Source: Kofleriaceae bacterium
GTDB taxonomy: Bacteria > Myxococcota_A > Polyangia > Haliangiales > Haliangiaceae
Direction: 5' to 3'
Length of the DNA stretch: 32,324 nt
NCBI GenBank assembly: GCA_022842285.1
Contig: JALHPV010000048.1
Span: forward strand, 1 to 32,324
Shown here piece by piece: positions 10,958-32,324 of the stretch (position 1 is the stretch's first letter; the number at the start of each line of letters is the position of its first letter). The notes beneath the pieces are model-generated. The model was not told the DNA's origin and searched no databases. It worked only from the letters and a program-made list of their open reading frames with translations. Position numbers and translations under genes: made by a program.

Positions 10958-12733
10958 CTAGCGCTTGCGCAGCAGGTTCCGCGACGACCACCAGCTCCAG
11001 GCGAGGAGCACTCCGGCGATGCGCGCGGTCCACCACGCGTACTCCGCGCGCTCCAGCTCGCCGCGGCCCTCGAGGGTGATGGCGACGACGGCGCCGGCGA
11101 TGCCGACTCCGGCGTAGATGAGCTGGTGGCCGAGTCGGTACATGAGCAGGGTGGGCTGCTCGAGGTTCTTGAACTTCAGCTGCAGCTCGCCGGCGTGGGC
11201 GGACCGCATGAACTTGCGGAGGTCCGTCGGCAGCGAGGTGACGGCCATGACGAGATCCTTCGACGTATCGAGGACGAGCGTCGACCAGTCACCTTCTTCG
11301 CCGAGGACGAACTTCTCGAGGTAGGGGCGGATGACGGTCATGGGGTTGAGGCCCGGGTCGAGCTCCGTGCAGAGCCCCATGAGGAGGAGCAGCGTGCGCT
11401 CGAGGATGATGATCTCCTTGGGCACGTGGAAGCTCGCCGAGAGCTCGCGGAGGGAGATGTCCATGCGGCGGAGGTCCGCCACGCTCTCGAGGCCCTTCTG
11501 GGGGTCGAACTTGATGTCCTTCAGGTTCAGCGAATCGAGGGAGATGTTCTCCTGGAAGCGCGCGTGGAAGTACTCGATGACCTGTTCGAACTTCTGGGTG
11601 TCGGCGCCGCGGGCGACGAAGCCCATCTGCTTCAGGGCGGTGACGATGCGGCGGGTGTCGCGCATGAGCGCACCGTGGACGAGCTCGACGAGGCCCGCGC
11701 GAATCTTGGGGCCGAGCTCGGCGACGGCGCCGAAGTCGAGGAAGACGAGCTGCGCCTTGCCGTGCGCGTCGGGGCGCACGAGCAGATTTCCGGGGTGCGG
11801 ATCGGCGTGATAGAGGCCGTCGGTGAAGATCTGCTGGCAGTAGCTCTCGACCACGAGGCGCGCGAGCTCGCTGCGGTCGAGGTTGGCTGCTTTCGTACCG
11901 GCGCGATCGGTGATCTTGCAGCCGGCTTCGAAGTGCGTGACGAGGACGCGCTGGGTCGAGAGCTCGGCCACCACCTGCGGGAAGGCGACGTCGGTGCGGC
12001 CGTCGAAGTTCGCGGCGATGCGCTGGGCGTTCGCCGCCTCCTCGCGGTAGTCGAGCTCGGCGAGGACGATGGTGCGGATCTCCCGGTACAGGTCCTCGAG
12101 CCCTTGGTAGGGGACGAACCACGAGATGATCTTGAAGATGCGGCGGAGCGTGTTGAGATCGCGCCGCACGATGTCTTCGATGTGTGGGTACTGGACCTTG
12201 ACCGCGACCTTGGTGCCGTCGGGCAGGCGGGCGAGGTGGACCTGGCCGATCGAGGCCGAGGCGATGGGGCGGCGCTCGAAGTACTCGAACATCTCCTCGG
12301 GGGACTTGCCGAGCTCGTCGCAGAGGCGCACCCGGATGTCCTCGAAGGGGTGCGGCGGGACGGAGTCCTGGAGACCCTCGAGCTCCCGGCGGAACTCCTC
12401 GGGGAGGAAGTTCGTCATGATCGAGATGAGCTGGCCCACCTTGATGAACAGGCCCTGCAGCCCGACGATCGCGCGCTCGATGCGGCGCGCGTTGCGGAGG
12501 TGGACGACCCGCAGGTTGTGCTCGACCCACTCGTCGGAGTGGAAGCGGGCCCGCAAGCGTAGCCAGTAGTAGCTGAAGATCACGCGCAGGGTCGTGAGGT
12601 ACGCGCGGAAGCTGCGGACCCGCAGCGGCGGGCGCTTGCCATCACCGTCGCTGCGATAGCGGCGCTTCTCCACCGCGAGTGCGGAGACCGAGTCTTCGGG
12701 CGCAAATGTCGCGCCTGAATCTCTCGCCGCCAT
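10958..12733 (-). CDS. ABC1/UbiB (AarF) family atypical kinase
   Basis: The 591-residue protein carries the signatures of the ABC1/ADCK/UbiB atypical kinase-like family: the KxGQ helix (GLFIKVGQLISI), an Ala-rich nucleotide loop in place of the glycine loop (ASASIGQVHLA), VAVKVQYP with the ATP-contact lysine, ExD-type ELDYREEAAN, YHADPHPGNLLV, and FLDFGAV. Two hydrophobic stretches lie near the C-terminus (YRLGHQLIYAGVGIAGAVVAI and the final AGVLLAW region), as in membrane-anchored UbiB. The family supports ubiquinone or isoprenoid-lipid metabolism by ATPase or kinase activity, but no other quinone-synthesis gene is nearby, so I withhold the symbol. ATG 12733 is chosen over TTG 12754 because TACCAT lies eight bases before it. 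It is divergent from the 12758 gene. Confidence 0.9.
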   Translation of the reverse strand: MAARDSGATFAPEDSVSALAVEKRRYRSDGDGKRPPLRVRSFRAYLTTLRVIFSYYWLRLRARFHSDEWVEHNLRVVHLRNARRIERAIVGLQGLFIKVGQLISIMTNFLPEEFRRELEGLQDSVPPHPFEDIRVRLCDELGKSPEEMFEYFERRPIASASIGQVHLARLPDGTKVAVKVQYPHIEDIVRRDLNTLRRIFKIISWFVPYQGLEDLYREIRTIVLAELDYREEAANAQRIAANFDGRTDVAFPQVVAELSTQRVLVTHFEAGCKITDRAGTKAANLDRSELARLVVESYCQQIFTDGLYHADPHPGNLLVRPDAHGKAQLVFLDFGAVAELGPKIRAGLVELVHGALMRDTRRIVTALKQMGFVARGADTQKFEQVIEYFHARFQENISLDSLNLKDIKFDPQKGLESVADLRRMDISLRELSASFHVPKEIIILERTLLLLMGLCTELDPGLNPMTVIRPYLEKFVLGEEGDWSTLVLDTSKDLVMAVTSLPTDLRKFMRSAHAGELQLKFKNLEQPTLLMYRLGHQLIYAGVGIAGAVVAITLEGRGELERAEYAWWTARIAGVLLAWSWWSSRNLLRKR

Positions 12734-12741
12734 CGTGGGGG

Positions 12742-12751
12742 ATGGTACCAC
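12742..12751. promoter_or_regulatory. Overlapping divergent -10 boxes around GGTACC
   Basis: The minus-strand TACCAT (12742-12747) ends eight bases before ATG 12733. The plus-strand TACCAC (12746-12751) ends six bases before ATG 12758. The two hexamers share the central TA of GGTACC. The whole intergenic space is only 24 bases, so both genes must use this site or start inside each other. Confidence 0.45.
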
Positions 12752-12757
12752 CAAGCC

Positions 12758-13333
12758 ATGGCCGGTACCGACGACGCATCCCGGGGTAAGGACGACGACC
12801 GGGACGGGCTGACCGAGACCATTCGCGCCAAGCTCGAGCAGATCGTCCCTGACCTGGTGAAGAAGACGTTTGCCGCGGGCATGGGCGCGGTCTTCCAGAC
12901 CGAGGAAGGTATCCGCAAGTTTGCGGGCGCCGCCCGGGACAGCGTGCCCGAGGTCGCCGGGTACCTCGCCTCATCGGCGGATGGCGCCAAGGACAAGGTC
13001 TTCGAGATCATCGCCCGCGAGACCCGCGAGTTCCTGACGACGCTGAACCTCACCGACGAGATCGCGAAGCTTTTGACGACGCTGTCGTTCGAGATCAAGA
13101 CGGAGATTCGCTTCATCCCGAACAGCGAGCGGGTGATGGGCGCCGAGCCCGATGTGAAGGCCAGCGTGCGCCTGAAGCGCAGCGACAAGGACAAGGACGA
13201 CAAGAAGGACGACGACGCCGCACGCGATAGCCGGTCGCGGCTCCGGTTCTGGCGGCGGGACAAGGACGGCGCCGGCGAGGGGGACGAGGGGGACGAGGCC
13301 GACCGTGACGAAGGTGACACTGTCGACAAGTGA
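12758..13333 (+). CDS. Conserved-looking hypothetical protein with charged C-terminal tail
   Basis: The 191-residue product has no signal peptide or membrane helix. Residues about 18-120 form a predicted run of amphipathic helices (TIRAKLEQIVPDLVKKTF, GIRKFAGAARDSVPEVAGYL, then FEIIARETREFLTTLNLTDE), loosely phasin-like in pattern. A short beta-type segment follows (FEIKTEIRFIPN). The last 50 residues are a low-complexity Lys/Asp/Glu tail (DKDKDDKKDDD, then EGDEGDEADRDEGD) that should be disordered. It shares a 24-bp divergent promoter region with the UbiB-like gene, suggesting co-expression and perhaps a lipid- or membrane-related role. I do not recognise a family. The next lipoprotein's likely start lies 23 bases downstream. 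Confidence 0.75.
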   Translation: MAGTDDASRGKDDDRDGLTETIRAKLEQIVPDLVKKTFAAGMGAVFQTEEGIRKFAGAARDSVPEVAGYLASSADGAKDKVFEIIARETREFLTTLNLTDEIAKLLTTLSFEIKTEIRFIPNSERVMGAEPDVKASVRLKRSDKDKDDKKDDDAARDSRSRLRFWRRDKDGAGEGDEGDEADRDEGDTVDK

Positions 13334-28499: not shown

Positions 28500-29243
28500 T
28501 TAGAACGTGTCCTTCCATGCCCGGAGGGCACGGAAGACCTCGTGCGGCTCGCGGGAGGCCGCGCCGTGGGCGAGCGCGGCCTCGATGACCGCGGGCTCGC
28601 TGCAGCGGAGGAACGGGTTGGTCGCGAGCTCGAGGTCCACGGTCGACGGTGTCGACGGCGCGGGGATCGCGGCGGCGCGGTCCGCCACCGCGCGGTTGGA
28701 CGGCTCGACGGCGGCCGCGAACCGGAGATTGCTCTGCGTGTACTCGTGGCCGAAGTAGAGGCGCGTCTCGCCGGGGAGGGCGGCGAGCTTCATGAGCGAG
28801 GCGTGCATCATGGCCGGATCGCCTTCGAACATGCGGCCGCAGCCGGCGCCGAACAGCGTGTCTCCGGTGAAGACGGCGTCGGCGATGCGAAAGCTGATCG
28901 CCCCGAGCGTGTGGCCGGGGTTATCGATCGCGTAGGCGCGGAGGTTGGCGGTCTCGGTCCACTCCTCGTCGGCGAGCCGCTGGGTGACTCCCTTGATCTT
29001 CTCGCTGTCCTTCGCGCTGGCGACGACCGGCAGGCCGGGACGGGCCGTGGTGAGGTCGGGCACGCCGCCGACGTGGTCCCAGTGGTGATGCGTGAGCCAG
29101 ATCGCGGCCAGCTCGACCCCCGCGCGCTCCAGCGCAGCCTCGACCGGCGCGGCCGCGCTGGGATCGACCACCGCCGCCTGCGTGCCCTCGATAACGAGGT
29201 AGGCGAAGTTGTCTTTGAGGCACGGCACGGCGACGACGCGCAT
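28500..29243 (-). CDS. gloB: Hydroxyacylglutathione hydrolase-type metallo-beta-lactamase (glyoxalase II)
   Basis: The 247-residue protein belongs to the metallo-beta-lactamase fold and looks like glyoxalase II, which hydrolyses S-D-lactoylglutathione to lactate and glutathione. It starts MRVVAVPCLKDNFAYLV, typical of GloB. Metal ligands are THHHWDHVGG (H52, H54, D56, H57), a later NPGHTLGAISF histidine, FTGDTLF and YFGHEY. The C-terminal HAGH-type region (LRFAAAVEPSNRAV, NPFLR) is present, so GloB is preferred over generic hydrolases. ATG 29243 follows TACGTT by six bases. It is divergent from the oxidoreductase gene through a shared promoter site. An upstream in-frame extension has no homology and overlaps that gene. 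Confidence 0.92.
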   Translation of the reverse strand: MRVVAVPCLKDNFAYLVIEGTQAAVVDPSAAAPVEAALERAGVELAAIWLTHHHWDHVGGVPDLTTARPGLPVVASAKDSEKIKGVTQRLADEEWTETANLRAYAIDNPGHTLGAISFRIADAVFTGDTLFGAGCGRMFEGDPAMMHASLMKLAALPGETRLYFGHEYTQSNLRFAAAVEPSNRAVADRAAAIPAPSTPSTVDLELATNPFLRCSEPAVIEAALAHGAASREPHEVFRALRAWKDTF

Positions 29244-29249
29244 GGGACG

Positions 29250-29259
29250 AACGTACAGT
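29250..29259. promoter_or_regulatory. Overlapping divergent -10 boxes around GTAC
   Basis: The minus-strand TACGTT (29250-29255) ends six bases before the gloB ATG. The plus-strand TACAGT (29254-29259) ends six bases before ATG 29266. They share the central TA, exactly as at 12742-12751. The intergenic gap is 22 bases. Confidence 0.55.
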
Positions 29260-29265
29260 CCAGGC

Positions 29266-30300
29266 ATGGGAATGCAAGCGATGGTTCTCCGCGAGCACGG
29301 CGGTCCCGACGTGCTGCGCATGGAGACGCTCTCGATCCCCGAGCCCGGACCGGGTGAGGCGCGGGTACGCGTGCGAGCGGTCGCGCTGAACCACATCGAC
29401 ATCTGGGTGCGCAAAGGCGGACCGGCGTTTCATCTCGAGTACCCGCATCGACTCGGCGCGGATATCGCGGGGACGATCGATGCGGTGGGCCCCGGCGTGA
29501 CCGCCGAGGTCGGCGCGCGGTGTGTCGTGCAGCCCGGCGTGTCGTGTGGCCGGTGCGCGTCGTGCCTCGGTGGTCACGACAACCTGTGCCGGTACTACAA
29601 GATCCTCGGCGAGAACACGCAGGGCGGTTACGCGGAGTACATCGTCGTCCCGGCGGTGAACCTCGCGCCGTATCCCCACCCTGACTTCACCTTTCCGCAG
29701 GCCGCCTCCTGCCTCCTGCCGTTCCTCACCGCGTGGCAGATGGTGGTGCACAAGGCGCGTGTGCAGCCGGGCGACACGGTGCTGGTACATGGCGCGGGCT
29801 CCGGCATCGGCGTGGCCGCGATCCAGATCGCGAAGCTGCACGGCGCCCGGGTCATCACGACGGCGAGCAGCGCCGAGAAGCTGGCGCAGGCACAGCAGCT
29901 CGGTGCCGATCACGTGATCGACTACACGCAGGTCGACTTCGCGGCAGAGTGCCGCACGTTGACCGGCAAGCGTGGCGTCGACGCCGTGATCGAGCATGTC
30001 GGGGGCGACGTGTTCGCGAGCAGCATCAAGGCCACACGCAACGGCGGTCGCATCGTCACGTGCGGCGCGACGGCCGGTTTTCATCCGAGCATCGACCTGC
30101 GGCACATCTTCTTCCGGCAGATCGAGATCCTCGGCTCGACGATGGGGAGCAAGGCGGATCTCCTCGCGGTGCTCGGGCACGTCGCCGCCGGTCGGCTCGC
30201 GCCGGTCGTCTACCGGCAGCTGCCGCTCGCGGCCGCCGCCGATGCGCATCGCATCCTCGAGGAGCGCCGGGGCTTCGGCAAGGTGGTGCTCGAGCCATGA
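29266..30300 (+). CDS. Zinc-containing quinone oxidoreductase / alcohol dehydrogenase family
   Basis: The 344-residue MDR-superfamily enzyme begins MGMQAMVLREHGGPDVLRM. The GroES-like domain has NHIDIWVRKG where classical alcohol dehydrogenases carry the catalytic-zinc cysteine, so catalytic zinc is probably absent. Four cysteines in CGRCASCLGGHDNLC match the structural zinc loop. The Rossmann domain has VLVHGAGSGIGVAAIQIAKL for NAD(P) binding. This combination fits quinone-oxidoreductase-like reductases. ATG 29266 is preferred over 29272 because TACAGT ends six bases before it. It is divergent from gloB; a detoxification link (reactive carbonyls) is plausible but inferred. The ABC transporter ATPase follows by ATGA overlap, so the three genes are likely one operon. 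Confidence 0.9.
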   Translation: MGMQAMVLREHGGPDVLRMETLSIPEPGPGEARVRVRAVALNHIDIWVRKGGPAFHLEYPHRLGADIAGTIDAVGPGVTAEVGARCVVQPGVSCGRCASCLGGHDNLCRYYKILGENTQGGYAEYIVVPAVNLAPYPHPDFTFPQAASCLLPFLTAWQMVVHKARVQPGDTVLVHGAGSGIGVAAIQIAKLHGARVITTASSAEKLAQAQQLGADHVIDYTQVDFAAECRTLTGKRGVDAVIEHVGGDVFASSIKATRNGGRIVTCGATAGFHPSIDLRHIFFRQIEILGSTMGSKADLLAVLGHVAAGRLAPVVYRQLPLAAAADAHRILEERRGFGKVVLEP

Positions 30301-31229
30301 CGACGGCGCTCTCACTGCGGGGGCTCGGCAAGGACTACGGCGCCCGGAAGGCGGTCCACGCCCTCGATCTCGATGTGGAGCGCGGGGAGTGTCTCGGCCT
30401 CCTCGGCCCGAACGGCGCGGGCAAGACGACGACCATCTCGATGGCCTGCGGCGTCGTCACGCCGACGCGCGGCACGATCGCCATCGGTGGGATCGAGCTC
30501 GCGCGCGATCCCCACGGCGCGAAGCGAAAGCTCGGGCTCGTGCCGCAGCAGCTCGCCGTCTACGACGAGCTGTCGGCGCTCCAGAACCTGCGCTACTTCG
30601 GCGCGCTCTACGGCCTGCGCGGCGACGAGCTGGCTCACCGCATCGACTGGGCCCTCGGCGTCGTCGGTCTGCGCGAGCGCGCGACGGACATCGTGAAGAC
30701 CTACTCGGGGGGCATGCAGCGTCGGCTGAATCTCGCGTCGGGCATCGTGCACAAGCCGGAGGTCCTCGTGCTCGACGAGCCGACCGTGGGCGTCGATCCA
30801 CAGAGCCGCAATCACATCTTCGAGACGGTGAAGGCGCTGCAGGGCGACGGCATGACGATCGTCTATACGTCGCACTACATGGAGGAGGTCGAGGCCCTCT
30901 GCGACCGCGTGGCGATCATCGACGGCGGCGCCATCGTAGCCGTCGGGACGATCGCGGAGCTGGTCGCCGAGCACTCGCAGCGCGGGGTGGCCGTCGACCT
31001 CGCAGGCACGCCCGAGCAAGTGGCCGCGGCCGAAGCGGCGGCCGCCGCACACGGAGTGGTCGAGCGGGTCGACGGCGAGCTCCGCATCGTCCCCACCGCG
31101 GGGTTGGCCCCGGTCGTGGCGGCCCTCGAGAGTACGGGGGCCACCATCGAGCGCATCGAGTCGCACCGCGCGAGCCTCGAGACCGCGTTCCTCGCCCTCA
31201 CGGGCAAGACGTTGCGAGACGACGCATGA
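30297..31229 (+). CDS. ABC-2 type transporter ATP-binding protein
   Basis: The 310-residue ATPase has Walker [10 protein letters not shown] (37-45), Q-loop LVPQQL, signature YSGGM (136-140), Walker B VLVLDEP (156-162) and H-loop TSHYMEE. After the nucleotide-binding domain (about 1-225) there is an extra C-terminal region of about 80 residues ending in [13 protein letters not shown], common in drug/lipid or antibiotic exporters (CcmA/DrrA-like). It starts in ATGA overlap with the oxidoreductase stop and ends in ATGA overlap with the permease gene, indicating tight coupling. The substrate cannot be deduced. Confidence 0.93.
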
Positions 31230-31975
31230 TCATCGCCTCCATTCGCAAGGACTGCTGGTTGCTGCTCCGCGATCGCGGCGCGCTGCTCTCGCTGTTCCTC
31301 CTGCCGATCGTGTTCATCCTGACCTTCGGCCTGATGTTCAGCGGCGGGGGTGGCGAACCGGGCAAGGGGCTGCCCATCACGAGCTTCCAGATCACGGTCC
31401 CCGGCAACGCGGTGCTGTTCGGCTTCTACATCGCGCTCACCGTCGCGGTCACGTTCGCCACCGAGCGTCGGACCGGCACGTGGCGCCGCCTGCTCGCCGC
31501 CCCGGTACCGCGTTCACACGCCTTGCTCGCCACGCTGGTGCCCTACTTCCTGATCGGCTGCGCTCAGCTCGCGTTCCTGTTCGGGCTGGGCGCCGGCGTG
31601 TTCGGCATGGAGGTGCGCGGCTCGGTGCTCGCGCTCGTCGTGCTGTCGCTGTGCGTGGTCCTGTGCGCCGTATGCCTGGGGCTGCTCTTCGCCGCCTTCG
31701 GCGGAACGGAACGGCAGCTCGGCGCGATGGGCTCGGTCACGCTGCTCGTGATGGGGCTCCTCGGCGGCTGCATGATGCCGCGGGTCGTCATGCCGGTAGC
31801 GATGCAGAAGGTCGGGCTGACCATGCCGCACGCGTGGGCGCTCGACGGCTACTACGCCGCCCTCGTCGAACCGTCGACGACGCTCATGGACGTGATGCCG
31901 TCGATCGGCGCGCTGCTCGGGTTCTCCGCGATCTTCGCGTTCGCCGGCCTCTCGCTGTTCAAGTTCGAGCGCTAG
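31226..31975 (+). CDS. ABC-2 type permease, short form
   Basis: The 249-residue permease has about six membrane helices: LLSLFLLPIVFILTFGLMF (near residue 20), AVLFGFYIALTVAVTFA, LLATLVPYFLIGCAQLAFLF, ALVVLSLCVVLCAVCLGLLF, VTLLVMGLLGGCMMP, and a last one near IGALLGFSAIFAFAGLSLF. Typical ABC-2 relatives have a periplasmic domain of 100 or more residues between helix 1 and the VPGNAVLFG motif. Here only about 20 residues (GGGGEPGKGLPITSFQIT) lie there, so the external domain is missing without frame disruption. It pairs with the ATPase to form an exporter. The following repeats begin about 45 bases after the stop. Confidence 0.88.
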   Translation: MIIASIRKDCWLLLRDRGALLSLFLLPIVFILTFGLMFSGGGGEPGKGLPITSFQITVPGNAVLFGFYIALTVAVTFATERRTGTWRRLLAAPVPRSHALLATLVPYFLIGCAQLAFLFGLGAGVFGMEVRGSVLALVVLSLCVVLCAVCLGLLFAAFGGTERQLGAMGSVTLLVMGLLGGCMMPRVVMPVAMQKVGLTMPHAWALDGYYAALVEPSTTLMDVMPSIGALLGFSAIFAFAGLSLFKFER

Positions 31976-32020
31976 CTCGCAACGCGCCGCAGGGCGTTGC
32001 CGCAGGACGTTGTCCACGCC

Positions 32021-32070
32021 GGTGCCGCACGCTGGTGCCCCAGGACGGTGCCGCACGCCGGTGCCCCAGA
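32021..32070. repeat. Two 23-bp imperfect tandem units
   Basis: GGTGCCGCACG[C/T]... units at 32021-32043 and 32048-32070 differ at one base and are 27 bases apart. The second runs into the larger repeat starting at 32053, whose second copy at 32206 begins with the same GCACGCCGGTGCCCCAG. Confidence 0.7.
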
Positions 32071-32171
32071 TTCTCAACGCCAAGACGCCATAGACGCCAA
32101 GGTAAGAGGGTTCGAAGGCCCTTCGGGCCGGACGTCCGCGATGGTGCCGATTCAAGTTCGCGCGCATGCGC
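32053..32171. repeat. 119-bp direct repeat, copy 1
   Basis: This stretch is identical to 32206-32324, giving a 153-bp period with a 34-bp spacer (32172-32205). Inside are three ACGCCA steps (ACGCCAAG, ACGCCATAG, ACGCCAAG), a GGCCC-TTC-GGGCC hairpin at 32117-32129 and CGCGCATGCGC palindromic sequence at the end. Any long minus-strand frame here is produced by the repeat and has no coding character. Confidence 0.95.
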
Positions 32172-32205
32172 GATCGCCTCATCACGGGCATCGTCGTGGG
32201 GTTCT

Positions 32206-32324
32206 GCACGCCGGTGCCCCAGATTCTCAACGCCAAGACGCCATAGACGCCAAGGTAAGAGGGTTCGAAGGCCCTTCGGGCCGGACGTCCGCGATGGTGC
32301 CGATTCAAGTTCGCGCGCATGCGC
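32206..32324. repeat. 119-bp direct repeat, copy 2, cut by the window edge
   Basis: Identical to 32053-32171 over its whole visible length. It reaches the last base of the window, so the match may extend further and more copies may follow. Confidence 0.95.

Follow-up and report, generated by a model that had tools for sequence, protein, structure and literature searches.

A candidate doubly leaderless bidirectional promoter in the 22-bp gap between gloB and an oxidoreductase operon of a Kofleriaceae genome

The 22-bp gap (29244-29265) between the divergent start codons of gloB (ATG 29243-29241, minus strand) and an oxidoreductase gene (ATG 29266-29268, plus strand) is likely to be a compact, doubly leaderless bidirectional promoter, in which one 10-bp site, AACGTACAGT, would serve both gloB and the oxidoreductase operon. 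We keep this reading at likely and no higher because both half-sites are weak and the start sites are only predicted. The mechanism itself is already known; what appears unusual is the combination of leaderless products in both directions with a gap made up of only hexamers and spacers. The window, that is, the whole 32,324-bp stretch of DNA analysed, corresponds to contig C48 in a draft genome of 7.9 Mb (G000; 69% GC in the part that was read) from an uncultured relative of myxobacteria, the nearest named relatives of which are Kofleriaceae/Myxococcales metagenome genomes. The features concerned are as follows.

28500-29243, minus strand: gloB, hydroxyacylglutathione hydrolase (glyoxalase II); TIGR03413 equivalog, 267.9 bits (cutoff 200.8), with PF16123 and PF00753
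29244-29249, minus strand: 6-bp spacer from the gloB -10-like hexamer to its ATG, without a Shine-Dalgarno sequence
29250-29259, both strands: 10-bp site AACGTACAGT (pattern ANNNTANNNT), proposed shared bidirectional -10 element
29255-29250, minus strand: TACGTT, -10-like hexamer of gloB, 6 bp from its ATG
29254-29259, plus strand: TACAGT, -10-like hexamer of the oxidoreductase gene, 6 bp from its ATG
29254-29255, both strands: shared TA, positions -12/-11 of both putative promoters, at the centre of GTAC (29253-29256)
29260-29265, plus strand: 6-bp spacer from the oxidoreductase hexamer to the first ATG
29266-30300, plus strand: zinc-type medium-chain dehydrogenase/quinone oxidoreductase-like protein; PF08240, PF00107 and orthologue alignment
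30297-31229, plus strand: ABC transporter ATPase (PF00005), overlapping the oxidoreductase stop by 4 bp, same operon
31226-31975, plus strand: ABC-2 type permease (PF01061), overlapping the ATPase stop by 4 bp

Further downstream, a 125-nt direct repeat (32047-32171 and 32200-32324; 98% identical, spacing 153) reaches the contig end; it is probably the reason why the assembly stops here, and the long ORF at 31514-32320 is a spurious product of it.

The shared site and leaderless starts across the genome

Positions 29241-29268 read CAT GGGACG AACGTACAGT CCAGGC ATG, so the preliminary description was exact in placing TACGTT (minus) and TACAGT (plus) in the 22-bp gap, each six bases from its ATG and overlapping at the TA of GTAC. 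The gap holds the shared hexamers and the two 6-bp spacers and nothing else. The opposite-strand hexamers have TA in common, which is the base sharing expected of a bidirectional promoter. Within 29101-29420, TA dinucleotides occur only at 29192, 29200, 29254, and 29366, and the shared TA is the sole one between 29202 and 29365. The pairing exceeds chance expectation: TANNNT, the frequency of which over 2.3 Mb of the genome is 7.9e-4 per position, occurs once per strand within 29001-29500, both times inside the gap and at the genome's preferred distance to the start codon; no further TANNNT was found within approximately 250 bp of the gap on either strand. A Shine-Dalgarno sequence is absent at both predicted starts, gloB being preceded by CGTCCC and ATG 29266 directly by CCAGGC.

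The preferred distance was obtained with a simple home-made codon-usage gene caller trained on approximately 2 Mb of G000, the upstream regions of the called starts being scanned; the gene-level statistics thus cover approximately 2.0-2.3 of 7.9 Mb. Among 449 genes with a divergent neighbour, TANNNT had its first T at -12 in 38 and at -13, -14, and -15 in 20, 20, and 15, respectively, against a background of approximately 3 per position and a flat ATNNNT control, and a clear Shine-Dalgarno peak was confined to tightly spaced codirectional genes. The peak at -12 to -15 indicates that leaderless or near-leaderless transcripts, with 6-9 bp between the -10 element and the start codon, are common in this genome. 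This agrees with the leaderless genes of a subset of delta-proteobacteria, reported in 8 of 33 genomes at an average of 15.8% (PMC3160421), and with the tested -10 motif of Deinococcus (PMC12340547). Widespread leaderless starts are thus indicated in a myxobacterial family for which we found no start-site map in the literature. TANNNT at -12 was also observed in 29 of 395 genes lying less than 30 bp behind a codirectional neighbour, which suggests that internal leaderless promoters are numerous within apparent operons.

On both sides of the studied gap, TANNNT stands 12 bp before the start codon (spacer 6), exactly at the genome's peak. Ahead of TANNNT, 61% of the leaderless promoters of G000 have G at -2 and 51% have it at -4, a signature resembling an extended -10 element, and a -35 element was not detectable among 164 of these promoters, TTGACA being barely above shuffled sequence; at the studied gap, TTGACA is matched at three of six positions on both sides. 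Neither half-site has the G at -2 or at -4, and both fall among the lowest-scoring 1-3% of the genome's leaderless promoters, so that neither is a good match to the consensus, a measure that lies outside the published definition of leaderless TANNNT-led genes. Genome-wide selection for symmetry through A at -4 was considered and rejected, A at this position being depleted in favour of G.

Orthologues and the history of the gene pair

Altogether, 12 genomes of the family retain the head-to-head gloB/oxidoreductase pair, two more genomes of the order have a similar pair, and the gap between the two genes in relatives ranges from approximately 20 to approximately 210 bp; the ABC ATPase gene also lies 3' of the oxidoreductase gene in six relatives. 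At a spacer of 6-8 bp, gloB orthologues have TA in 20 of 25 cases and TANNNT in 16 of 25, and the control ATNNNT in none of 25. TANNNT at the same spacer precedes 27 of 62 oxidoreductase orthologues, including those of Polyangiaceae genomes in which gloB is not adjacent, compared with 3 of 62 for the control. The element is thus conserved together with the start of each gene, and the position peak across the genome and the orthologues of both genes lend good support to the proposal that both products are leaderless, though at the level of predicted transcripts.

In the oxidoreductase gene, a second in-frame ATG at 29272, preceded at 7 nt by a weak AGG, encodes a Met conserved in all relatives. 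ATG 29266 is the likelier start because the -10 element in relatives tracks the first ATG and not the conserved internal Met; ATG 29272 is kept as an alternative.

Relatives with long gaps have a separate element for each gene, for example, G004 (56 bp), G024 (33 bp), and G017 (approximately 90 bp). In G004, gloB has TACGTT, the same hexamer at the same position as in the window, and the oxidoreductase gene has TATCGT 6 bp from its ATG. In relatives with short gaps, the elements overlap, with TA in common in G000, G005, and G007 and TATA in G010. The gloB hexamers of G005 and G007 lack the last T (TAGACA and TAGAAC, respectively), and the strict shared form was found at this locus in G000 only. 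A tree of the two proteins mixes lineages with overlapping elements among long-gap lineages, and it places G014, whose gap is 48 bp, with good support as sister to G005 and G007. As each gene keeps its own -10 element even at long gaps, two separate leaderless promoters appear to have merged on one TA. The simplest reading of this pattern would be that two old leaderless promoters merged repeatedly, and the reverse change is also possible. The long-gap and short-gap relatives provide a natural series for studying the merger of two promoters.

The same data bear on the suggestion that only one direction, most likely that of gloB, uses the site, the promoter of the other gene lying within the coding sequence opposite, perhaps served by a different sigma factor, and its transcript having a leader. 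The position of the gloB hexamer is the more conserved, both half-sites are weak, the AGG before ATG 29272 could act as a Shine-Dalgarno sequence on a longer RNA, and the oxidoreductase start of the family member G021 is led by AGGAG instead of a -10 element. However, the studied site is the only TANNNT for approximately 250 bp each way on both strands, and many Myxococcota have TANNNT 6-8 bp from the oxidoreductase start; we therefore consider this explanation unlikely. The earlier statement that the gap leaves no room for separate promoters nevertheless went too far, as the coding region on the other side could itself contain a promoter. One site for both genes is still the best available reading, favoured by the lack of other TANNNT nearby, the 23-bp class of start-site separation, and the recurrence of the layout, and weakened by the half-sites.

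Recurrence of the shared layout

The layout was searched for as CATN5-8 ANNNTANNNT N5-8 ATG, with a composition-matched control in which the TA of the core was changed to AT (ANNNATNNNT). The flanked layout had 9 matches in G000 compared with 11 for the control ANNNATNNNT, and the raw pattern count was thus discarded as proof; only gene context separates the two, true head-to-head starts being found for 6 of the 9 layout matches and none of the 11 control matches (Fisher p 0.002). The genome search for head-to-head pairs with the same core, as advised at the outset, was therefore uninformative for word counts and clearer at the gene level. When the first match per genome was taken in 28 family genomes, head-to-head starts accompanied 6 of 28 layout matches and 1 of 28 control matches. 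Among 257 divergent pairs gathered without bias, three had the shared form, and each of seven permuted forms was found at most once. A backwards-pattern control, which had 2 matches in G000, was too lenient, probably owing to ATG and codon bias, and the one-sided control ANNNTANNNA gave no decisive contrast across the family. The shared-TA layout is thus recurrent but uncommon, as judged from these sequence counts. Its repeated origin by chance, followed by retention, is to be expected because the self-complementary TA requires only one gained T for a second hexamer.

This low cost of sharing a palindromic TA, together with the bare 10-mer being hardly enriched in divergent intergenic DNA (1.17e-3, compared with 0.89e-3 for the matched control), is what speaks for the hexamers being random TANNNT words in a short gap, neither of them a promoter. 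Such a coincidence is very unlikely, considering that both hexamers lie exactly at the genome's preferred distance and that both are conserved in orthologues, where the controls are near zero. Least probable of all, and only barely credible, is a regulator that binds GTAC or GGAC-N9-GTCC and controls both genes, the -10 resemblance being secondary: a 4+4 inverted repeat, GGAC (29245-29248) and GTCC (29258-29261), does flank the core, but its arms are short and relatives do not share them, the retained feature being the TA-to-start distance.

Five other head-to-head pairs of G000 have a shared-TA 10-mer (C3:81681, C127:10900, C207:4461, C208:10385, and C217:1711), with start codons 23-26 bp apart. 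The window itself contains a second tight head-to-head pair (12731-12760), formed by a minus-strand gene at 10958-12754, judged by eye to encode a UbiB/ABC1-kinase-like protein, and a plus-strand gene from 12758; ATGGTACCAC lies between the starts of this pair, with TANNNT on the minus side only. In the relative G008, at least 14 dispersed copies of an approximately 31-bp word like CATCGTCGCGANNNTATATA(A/C)GC(T/C)CTAAATG were observed on different contigs, and this word may be one end of a repeated or mobile element.

Proposed mechanism and comparison with known systems

Considering these results, we propose the following scenario. The 10-bp AACGTACAGT would function as a sigma-70-type bidirectional core promoter without a clear -35 element. 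RNA polymerase may bind it in either orientation because the TA (-12T/-11A) reads identically on both strands, and each orientation would have its own T at -7 on the far side of the TA. Transcription would start approximately 7 nt past each hexamer, at or within approximately 1 nt of the A of the start codon, giving two divergent leaderless mRNAs, one for gloB and one for the oxidoreductase-ABC transporter operon, with predicted start sites approximately 23 bp apart. A 23-bp separation and a 7-bp distance to each start together imply geometrically that the -12T/-11A of both promoters coincide as the shared TA. The polymerases may be mutually exclusive, with strong firing in one direction reducing the other. 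In the ancestral state, each gene may have had one leaderless -10 element, shortening of the gap having moved both onto one TA. Should both starts be confirmed, start codons 22 bp apart with a shared 10-mer and no leaders would come close to the minimum needed to launch two genes. A wider proposal, that Kofleriaceae and their relatives reuse this minimal design, in which head-to-head genes 20-26 bp apart have a shared-TA 10-mer as the whole promoter for two leaderless mRNAs, arising repeatedly as two older leaderless promoters collapsed and serving as an either/or switch between the two genes, is tentative, and we regard it as possible and somewhat doubtful.

Bidirectional promoters have been described in Escherichia coli, Salmonella, and other prokaryotes by Warman, Grainger and colleagues (PMC12825309, PMC10268837, and the 2021 Nature Microbiology paper cited there). 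Start-site separations of 18 bp are the commonest among them, 10 and 23 bp also being common, and simultaneous binding of polymerase in both directions is sterically excluded (PMC12825309). The studied gap resembles these promoters in its shared -10 symmetry and in a predicted separation of 23 bp, which is one of their common spacings and falls within their 7-25 bp definition. In the commonest, 18-bp form, -7T and -11A coincide, whereas only -12T/-11A do so here, and AACGTACAGT does not belong to this canonical subclass (TANNNTA). The appeal of the preliminary description to -10 symmetry as known in bacteria thus holds for the 23-bp form and not for the canonical one. Unlike the E. coli and Salmonella promoters, the present candidate is known from sequence, and its predicted starts fall on the start codons in both directions.

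In motif, distance, and absence of a Shine-Dalgarno sequence, the two genes resemble the -10-led leaderless genes of Actinobacteria, Deinococcus-Thermus, and some delta-proteobacteria; those reports treat single genes, in contrast to the pair studied here (PMC3160421, PMC12340547, PMC3898074). Closely juxtaposed divergent promoters have been noted in Mycobacterium tuberculosis, where prpD/Rv1129c is divergent and leaderless on both sides, with no shared hexamer described in the portion of the source consulted. The EcoRV restriction-modification system also has two divergent promoters with overlapping polymerase sites, at which binding in one direction affects the other; it differs from the gloB/oxidoreductase pair in being regulated by a C protein, the transcript of which is not leaderless (PMC5333194).
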